From contig CAMYKF010000675.1 of the NCBI GenBank assembly GCA_947258905.1, forward strand, positions 1-41,576: a stretch of 41,576 nucleotides of DNA. The letters are read 5' to 3'. Under the pieces are notes generated by a model. The model worked only from the letters and a program-made list of their open reading frames with translations, was not told the DNA's origin and did not search any database. This DNA is from an uncultured Pirellulaceae bacterium (GTDB lineage: Bacteria; Planctomycetota; Planctomycetia; Pirellulales; Pirellulaceae). The position numbers and the translations under genes were made by a program. Shown piece by piece: positions 35 to 3,350 of the stretch (its first letter is position 1; each line of letters opens with the position of its first letter).

Positions 35-3000
35 ATGGAAAATTCGCCCAAAGTCGATCTTTCGATTGTCGCCCGCAATCTCGAACTCCCCGAACATCAG
101 GTTCGCATTGCCGTCGAGTTGCTGGATGACGGCAACACGATTCCGTTTATCGCGCGTTATCGAAAAGACGAAACGGGCGGGCTCGCGGAACGTCCTTTGC
201 GCAACATCCATCAGGAAGTTGCCCGTCTGAATGCGCTGGCCGAGCGCAAGGCGACGATCCTCAAGTCGCTGGAAAACCAGGACAAACTGACCGGAGACTT
301 GCGGTCCCGTATCGAACAGGCAACCCAGTCACGCGCGCTGGAAGACCTGTATTTGCCCTACAAGCCCCGGAAGCAGACAGCTGCTGCCCTGGCTCGGCAA
401 CAAGGACTGGATCCGCTGGCCCGGGACATCCTCGAAGGCCGTGAGCCAGATGTCGACCTGGCGTCAAGAGCCACCGACTTTGTACGAGTCGACAAGGGAC
501 TGAACTCGGTCGATGAAGTCATCGAAGGCGTCAGGCACATACTTGCAGAAAAATTTGCCGAGCATGTTCAGCTAAGAAAACAAATCCGCAAGATCTATCG
601 CGAGTCCGCCAAGCTGGCAACGAAAGTCGCTGATCAGCAGCTGGAAGCGGACGGCAAACAACCGCCTGAGGCGAAACAGCAGCAAGCGAGAGCTGCCGGC
701 CAGCCGGATGTGGCGACAGAAACAGCCAATCCGGAATCCGCCGACCCGCCAACACCGAACAGCCAATCCGGAATCCGCCGACCCGCCAACACCGAAGGTT
801 CCGGCATCTGCCGAAACGCAGAACGCGGCCCCCGCCGAAACTCCGCAGCCGGATGTGGCAACAGAAACAGCCAATCCGGAATCCGCCGACCCGCCAACAC
901 CGAAAGATCCGGCATCTGCCGAAACGCAGAACGCGGCCCCCGCCGAGACTCCGCAGCCGGATGTGGCAACGGAAACAGCCAATCCGGAATCCGCCGACCC
1001 GCCGACTCCGAAAGATCCGGCATCTGCCGAAATGCAGAACGCGGCCCCCGCCGAAACTCCGCAGCCGGATACATCCAGCGAACCACTTGCCGCTGCCTCG
1101 CAGCCAGCGACCGAGACCACGCAACCCACCGAGACCACGCAACCCATTAGCGCAGCCGGAAAAGACGACACAACGATCGCGGGTCAGGCCGAGCAGACGG
1201 CCACTGCCACGGCAATCGAATCGCCATCAACCACCGAGCCAGTGGCAGCACCATCCCGCCGCAAAAAGAAAAAAAAGAAGAAAGCCAAACCCGATCCCTT
1301 CGCGGAATTCCGCGACTTCTCGGAAACTGTGCAGAAATTGCCACCGCACCGCATCCTTGCCATTAATCGCGGGGAACGTGCGGGACGGATCGAGGTCAGG
1401 TTTCAGGCCGACGCAGATCGAATTCGCGAAGCATCGCGGAAGGCACTGATTCCCGAAAATCACCCCTTCACCGAGTTCCTGAACACCGCAGTCGAACAAT
1501 CGCTGAACGAGTTGATTCTGCCGAGCATCGAACGGGAAATCCGTCGCGATCTGACGGAACGTTCGGAAACACACGCCGTCAATGTGTTTGCCCGCAACCT
1601 GCGGCACCTGTTTCTGCAACCACCCGTCTCGGGCCATCGCATTCTGGGAGTCGATCCGGGATATCGTTCGGGCTGCAAGGCCGCCGCCATTGACGAAACC
1701 GGGCAGCCGCTCGGCCACGGTGTGTTTTCCATCGTGGGCAACGAAGAACGCATCAATCACAACAAACAACGCCTGGTCGATCTGGTCAACAAATTCGAGC
1801 CCGAATTGATTGCCATTGGAAACGGCAATGGTTGCCGCGCCGTCGAGCAATTTGTTTCGCAGGTCATCAACAACGAACTGGCCAATCGCAATCTGCAGTA
1901 CACAATCGTGAATCAGGCCGGCACCAGTGCCTACTCGACCGGCGAAACCGCGCGCGAGGAATTACCCGATCACGATCCGGTCATTCGCAGTGCTATCTCC
2001 ATCGCCCGACGGTTGCAGGATCCGCTCTCGGAACTCGTTAAAGTCAACCCGGCCAATATCGGCGTGGGCATGTACCAGCATGACATCAAGGCCCAGCACC
2101 TGGCGGACGCGCTGGATGCCGAAGTCGCATCCTGCGTCAACCTGGTCGGTGTGAATGCCAACACCGCTGGAGTTTCACTGCTCAAATACGTTTCCGGTCT
2201 GGGCCAGACGGCAGCCGCCAATCTGGTCGAATCTCGCAAAGCCAACGGGCCGTTCAGTTCGCGCGAAGATTTGAAAAAGGTTTCCGGATTTGGCGATGTA
2301 ACGTTCGTGCAAGCTGCCGGATTTCTGCGAATCGGTGACAGCGCCAACCAACTGGATCGGACGGCAATACACCCCGAAAGTTACGAGATTGCTGAGAAGA
2401 TTCTTGCCTCGCTGCAATGCAAGATCGAGGAACTGGAACTTCCCAAACAGGATTATTTGCGTCGTACCCAGGCGGCGCCCCCTGCGACCAGCGACGCCGG
2501 TCAGTCGACGGCGACGCCGGAAGGGCCGGCAACCACGCAGGAAGTAGCGACCCCAACGGATCCGGCCAGCGAGACGAGCCTCGAAAAAACGGAGGCCTCG
2601 CCAGCGGAATCCGCACCCAAACCACCTGCCACCGAACCGTCACCGGGCGAGTTTGCCGCGAAAAAGAAACGCCGCAACGAATTGGTGCACAAAATCAAGG
2701 CGCTGGATGCGGCCAAACTGGCTCGCGAAATGAATGTCGGTGAAATGAAAATTCGCGACATCCTGCGATCCATCCGCAACCCGCTGCAGGATCCGCGTGA
2801 CGAATCTCCCGCGCCCGTATTTCGCAAGGGAATTCTCAAACTCGAAGACCTCAAGCCGGGCATGCAATTGCGCGGGCAAATCGTCAATGTGGTTGACTTT
2901 GGCGTGTTCCTCAACGTAGGCATCGGTGAAAGCTGCCTGGTTCACATCAGCCGCCTGTCCAATCGCTACGTGCGTGATCCTCACTGGTTTTTTGCCGTGG

Positions 3001-3350
3001 GTGACGTGTTGAATGTGTGGGTGCAGGAAGTCGACAAGGAAAAACGGCGGGTGACGCTGACCGCGATTCGACCCGAATCAGCGAGGCGGGAACGACGCAG
3101 ACCTCCGCGAGGCGAAGCGCGGGGGGCGGGCAAGGCTGCGGGTCGCGGACGTGGCCGCGGCGGCGGTCGTAGCGGCAAGCCGCAGGGCAAGGGGAAACCG
3201 CATCACAAACGGACTCGCAAGCCAAAACCGGTCACGCCGATCACTCAGGAAATGGTCGAAGGCAAGAAACCCATGCGATCCTTCTCTGACTTGTTGCAGT
3301 TTCACAAAAAGAAGACTGACGACGAAAAGGACAAGGACAAGGAATCCTGA
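35..3350 (+). CDS. tex: Tex-family RNA-binding transcription accessory protein (HtH / YqgF-like / HhH / S1), frameshifted in this sequence
   Basis: The N-terminal half is ORF 35..1150 (LPEHQVRIAVELLDDGNTIPFIARYRKDETGGL). The C-terminal half is in ORF 708..3350 (HRILGVDPGYRSGCKAAAID, VSGFGDVTFVQAAGFLRI, S1 domain GMQLRGQIVNVVDFGVFLNVG). The frames differ by +1 because of a 37-bp tandem duplication at 722-795. Confidence 0.9.
701..1061 (+). repeat. Three tandem 108-bp (36-aa) units, the first carrying an internal 37-bp duplication
   Basis: Units start at 701, 846 and 954 with cagccggatgtggc[ga/aa]cagaaacagccaatccggaatccgcc...; they encode QPDVATETANPESADPPTPKDPASAETQNAAPAETP. Confidence 0.95.

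Follow-up and report, generated by a model that had tools for sequence, protein, structure and literature searches.

A 37-bp tandem duplication divides a long tex gene within a coding minisatellite of an uncultured Pirellulaceae bacterium: recent mutation or assembly artefact

In the window (the whole 41,576-nucleotide stretch analyzed here, which is the entire contig C675), a tex gene is divided between two reading frames by an exact 37-bp tandem duplication, located in the first unit of a coding minisatellite with a 108-bp period. The frame break is best read as a sporadic event within this minisatellite, the duplication being either a recent mutation or an artefact of assembly. We assign a probability of about 0.48 to a one-off, recent duplication in the minisatellite of long tex that exists as a real molecule. 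An assembly artefact in a genome with an intact gene is a serious contender that itself falls short of even odds, and ranking these two becomes meaningful only with reads.

Positions 759–795 repeat positions 722–758 exactly and in tandem, as the earlier note had claimed, and TRF reports a period-37 array at 721–796 with 100% matches; a chance match is ruled out. The identity run at this duplication is 39 bp, leaving the phase ambiguous by 2 bp. The arrangement is that of a short-junction tandem duplication, with exact head-to-tail copies of 37 bp and a 2-bp extension at the ends. The two-copy junction carries the sequence CACCGAACAGCC. The two open reading frames described in the same note are also present; they lie in different frames with an overlap of 443 nt, and deleting one copy indeed yields a single frame (3316 nt − 37 = 3279 nt = 1093 codons). 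The features of the locus are as follows.

35..1150, + strand: upstream ORF, 371 aa; Tex_N (aa 10–80) and the first part of Tex_central_region, then the array, out of frame after the duplication
708..3350, + strand: downstream ORF, 880 aa; remainder of the array in the Tex frame, second part of Tex_central_region, YqgF, HHH and S1
638..1292, + strand: insert 1 of long Tex, P/A/T/S/E-rich with a lysine-rich end; replaces approximately residues 203–207 of P. aeruginosa Tex, inside Pfam Tex_central_region; same site in relatives
701..845, + strand: minisatellite unit 1, 145 bp long owing to the duplication
722..758, + strand: duplication copy 1, from sequence identity and TRF; phase ambiguous by 2 bp (identity run 721–796)
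759..795, + strand: duplication copy 2, identical to copy 1; right limit (796/797) is the divergence point of units 1 and 2 (904/905)
846..953, + strand: minisatellite unit 2, 108 bp, 36 codons
954..1061, + strand: minisatellite unit 3, 108 bp, 36 codons
1638..2018, + strand: Tex_YqgF domain, aa 311–437 of ORF 708..3350
2136..2513, + strand: HHH_3 and HHH_9 domains, aa 477–602 of ORF 708..3350
2433..2693, + strand: insert 2 of long Tex, low-complexity, ~87 aa; replaces approximately residues 595–601 of P. aeruginosa Tex; start approximate, overlapping the end of the HHH_9 match
2853..3062, + strand: S1 domain, aa 716–785 of ORF 708..3350
3252..3302, + strand: conserved C-terminal motif MVEGKKPMRSFSDLLQF of long Tex, in the window sequence and relatives

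The Tex_N, Tex_YqgF, HHH and S1 domains all pass the Pfam cut-offs and keep the Tex order, distributed across the two ORFs; in the window assembly they form two polypeptides in two frames instead of one uninterrupted chain. The upstream ORF matches Tex_N and profile positions 3–68 of Tex_central_region, and the downstream ORF matches positions 63–178 of the same profile, followed by Tex_YqgF, HHH_3/HHH_9 and S1. Upon alignment with P. aeruginosa Tex (3BZC), the upstream half covers residues 23–202 and the downstream half begins at residue 208, so the frame break sits in a ~200-residue insert, where the solved structure has a few residues. The domain order (Tex_N, central region, YqgF, HHH, S1) is that of P. 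aeruginosa Tex (PDB 3BZC, 2OCE; Tex/Spt6 family); unlike the latter, the window protein possesses two long low-complexity inserts (after approximately residues 202 and 594), a C-terminal motif and the frame break in insert 1.

The array in insert 1 consists of three 108-bp units (starting at 701, 846 and 954) and a partial tail, and its longest exact internal repeat is 44 bp. Units 1 and 2 diverge at exactly the base where the duplication reaches its right limit (797 and 905). Units 1–3 differ at nine sites, and seven of these are third-position changes in the Tex frame and synonymous (chance of at least 7/9 is 0.008 under a 1-in-3 expectation), indicating that the array diverged while being translated.

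Related genomes were compared, as the earlier note had proposed. We extracted 28 long-Tex loci from relatives, the contigs of 26 spanning insert 1; L011 and L029 were excluded from the count, as their contigs start inside the array of the insert, and L009, L017, L025 and L030 were labelled 'part' by the motif script, yet have both termini. In 26/26 spanning relatives a single frame is open from the N-terminal part through the insert. The intact one-frame gene is thus, as judged from these sequences, the ancestral state.

Insert lengths vary widely among the relatives, and the long inserts are rich in P/A/T/S/E/D. Tandem arrays are frequent in both inserts: TRF detected 48, with consensus lengths divisible by 3 in all except two (a 171-nt period with a 172-nt consensus and a 21-nt period with a 20-nt consensus; 46/48 divisible). 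The in-frame arrays differ by genome, for example (PEQAV)n in L011, (TESTAP)n and (APASE)n in L018, and (ADSDIV)n in L027. Two low-complexity inserts make the long Tex of planctomycetes an unusual architecture for a Tex protein.

The core blocks of the window protein are 68–75% identical to same-genus proteins, with dN/dS of 0.08–0.10 in the C-terminal blocks; for the N-terminal block, pN is ~0.2 and synonymous sites are saturated. The C-terminal motif, with the pattern P-[ML]-[RT]-[ST]-F-x-[DE]-L, is matched in 24 of the 25 relatives with a C-terminus and is intact in the window. In the window and in relatives L003–L031 it sits after the basic low-complexity tail of long Tex; the same-genus canonical Tex proteins (L131, L132) lack it and stop just past S1. 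This element may possibly act as a docking motif. Conservation of the cores and of the C-terminal motif implies that the frame break is either very recent or not real.

The window gene belongs to this 'long' Tex, which is separate from a canonical Tex of ~740 aa also carried by close relatives. Long Tex is present in most of the 60 genomes searched (same family or order), and a second, canonical Tex (~720–780 aa) in many of them. The two same-genus genomes have both types: G001 (C166 and C148) and G002 (C198/C613 and C666). Their canonical proteins, G001:C148 (L131) and G002:C666 (L132), lack the inserts and are ~42% identical to long Tex across the YqgF–HHH part. Since same-genus genomes hold this second copy, loss of long Tex could be tolerated. 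In the window's own assembly only long Tex was found and canonical Tex was not, which the incompleteness of that assembly (84% complete) may explain; taken as it stands, the missing backup counts against a real null allele. Given how strongly long Tex is conserved, a null allele in the majority is likewise unlikely a priori.

If the duplication is real, the following course of events can be proposed. A 37-bp tandem duplication with 2-bp microhomology at its ends would have arisen once in the fast-evolving 108-bp minisatellite. As 37 is not divisible by 3, translation starting at position 35 would depart from the Tex frame at the duplication and stop at 1150, giving a product of ~371 aa that retains Tex_N and a portion of the central domain and lacks YqgF, HHH and S1. 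The resulting allele would be a loss-of-function or a segregating one. Exact loss of one copy via RecA-independent replication slippage could restore the gene; in E. coli, such loss from a tandem pair is well documented for repeats of 101 bp (PMC8378479). A return to two copies should seldom occur: the one-copy sequence lacks any repeat at 37-bp spacing and offers just 2 bp of microhomology, and unequal exchange between 108-bp units preserves the frame. We infer that DNA molecules carrying the duplication exist in the population, that the allele arose recently and that its truncated product, to judge from sequence, would be inactive.

The alternative that comes closest is that the genome carries one copy and an intact long tex, and that the assembler joined pieces meeting at the end of the unit 1/2 repeat while retaining a 37-bp overlap. 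The source is a short-read-type MAG, a fragmented draft of 763 contigs that is 84% complete and scaffolded with N gaps. The right limit of the duplication falls exactly on the repeat branch point in a region that is hard to assemble: the contigs of 4 of the 28 relatives (L008, L011, L018, L029) terminate within these inserts. One scaffold gap of the same genome also consists of 43 N between identical 20-bp ends, and the intact frames of 26/26 relatives agree with a one-copy genome. Against this, the junction 10-mer ACCGAACAGC occurs once in the whole contig, hence the junction is new sequence, which favors a real molecule, and an N run is absent there. Two contig-end overlaps of 99 bp were also detected: C570 and C228 have 99 terminal bases in common, and the match of the start of C461 to C664 ends exactly at base 99 of that contig. 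The final assembly k was therefore probably ~99–100, which exceeds the 74 bp of the duplication. A de Bruijn path creates no junction missing from the reads, although iterative assemblers do carry earlier contigs forward. Taken together, the unique junction and the probable k lean, as indirect evidence, against an artefact. A specific version, joining through an overlap at k = 37, was prompted by the end at the repeat branch and rejected, as contig-end overlaps are 99 bp and no assembler step of such size is evident.

Tandem repeats left unresolved in draft assemblies resemble the tex case in that the array lies in a fragmented draft and the contigs of relatives stop within the homologous inserts. 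However, such repeats usually appear as collapses, breaks or N gaps, whereas tex shows a precise extra copy without N.

The base rate of exact tandem duplications of at least 20 bp was estimated from 82 contigs (~0.84 Mb) of the same genome, and no other duplication there breaks a long ORF, a further point against an artefact. Those with lengths that are not multiples of 3 lie outside open frames of at least 150 codons or at a gene's edge, and those within genes (L070, L153) have lengths that are multiples of 3. Frame-breaking lengths outside genes and multiples of 3 inside are the pattern expected of real duplications under selection, to which the tex duplication is the exception. The following repeats and gap were recorded.

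L150:4293–4398 (G000:C6): exact tandem duplication of 53 bp, outside long ORFs, whose ends show no extension
L073:13583–13627: 22-bp duplication, length not a multiple of 3, outside frames of at least 150 codons or at a gene edge
L117:3756–3816: duplication with a 20-bp unit, length not a multiple of 3, outside frames of at least 150 codons or at a gene edge
L086:2219–2347 (G000:C588): GACCTTC heptamer array, ~18 copies, between two genes; covered by one overlapping open frame, not by the flanking genes
L073:3345–3427 (G000:C575): scaffold gap of 43 N with the same 20 bp on either side; overlapping ends left unmerged by the scaffolder

Much less probable is a reversible repeat-length switch, with long Tex on in the one-copy state and off in the two-copy state. 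It is just as improbable that the duplication persists at intermediate frequency in the population, with 37 bp gained and precisely lost to toggle long Tex; a transcription-accessory factor of an environmental planctomycete would then undergo phase variation driven by duplication. Pneumococcal capsule genes provide a known case of such phase variation (Waite et al. 2001, 2003, as cited in PMC4022640), and the slippage documented in E. coli provides a route back to one copy. Nevertheless, with 2 bp of microhomology and no 37-bp spacing in the one-copy state, switching off should be rare, and exchange among 108-bp units preserves the frame. The arrays of relatives have periods divisible by 3, an out-of-frame insert occurs in none of the relatives spanning insert 1, and Tex does not belong to the surface structures that contingency loci usually control. 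In a contingency locus, both states retain a hypermutable repeat whose unit length is not divisible by 3; the array proper is built of 108-bp units. A maintained two-way switch is thus possible in principle but poorly supported. Among the three explanations offered by the earlier note, assembly error and recent loss of function are both still live, and the reversible switch loses ground to the in-frame relatives (26/26), to arrays that are effectively all multiples of 3 and to a one-copy state without a 37-bp-spaced repeat.

Known systems bear on this comparison. Waite and colleagues, in work of 2001 and 2003, reportedly described short duplications in pneumococcal cap3A, cap8E and tts, with both states and the switching between them observed in culture. 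As in tex, a short tandem duplication within the ORF inactivates it; the capsule genes differ in showing two states in culture, whereas the tex allele is known from one draft-genome consensus. In the simple-sequence contingency loci of Haemophilus and Neisseria, as in tex, repeat number changes the reading frame, but these loci consist of many short units kept in both phases, and tex has two 37-bp copies and none in the in-frame state. Short-junction duplications at S. aureus sigH are kilobase-scale with, for example, an 8-bp flanking repeat; they generate an active chimeric gene, and reversion gives back the single-copy sequence (PMC3486894). Both cases share a head-to-tail arrangement with very short end identity, but the tex duplication is 37 bp long, has 2-bp microhomology and breaks the gene, whereas that of sigH creates an active chimera and only there has reversion been seen (PMC3486894). 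Literature searches on Tex in Planctomycetes, MAG tandem-repeat frameshifts and Tex/YhgF returned nothing useful.

It is also highly improbable that the two ORFs function as they stand, either as two proteins (the second starting at 708 or by reinitiation) or as one produced via +1 ribosomal frameshifting in the overlap. The 443-nt overlap and an ATG at 708 in the C-terminal frame would allow this, but that ATG comes with the repeat unit (CAGCCGGATGTGG is found again in units 2 and 3), the break lies within the Tex_central_region domain and the split form is absent from relatives; inspection by eye revealed no recognized ribosomal shift site. ORF 708..3350 as an independent gene, the finding that the earlier note said would overturn its interpretation, is rejected because relatives hold both parts in a single open frame, and a long-standing pseudogene is likewise rejected, given the conservation of both cores and of the C-terminal motif.

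As a single event, the duplication carries little weight: repeat-rich inserts in MAG genes yield apparent pseudogenes, which call for checks at the read level. More interesting is the setting, namely a planctomycete long Tex with two fast-evolving inserts, arrays that are kept in frame and a C-terminal motif lacking in the canonical paralogue of the same genus.
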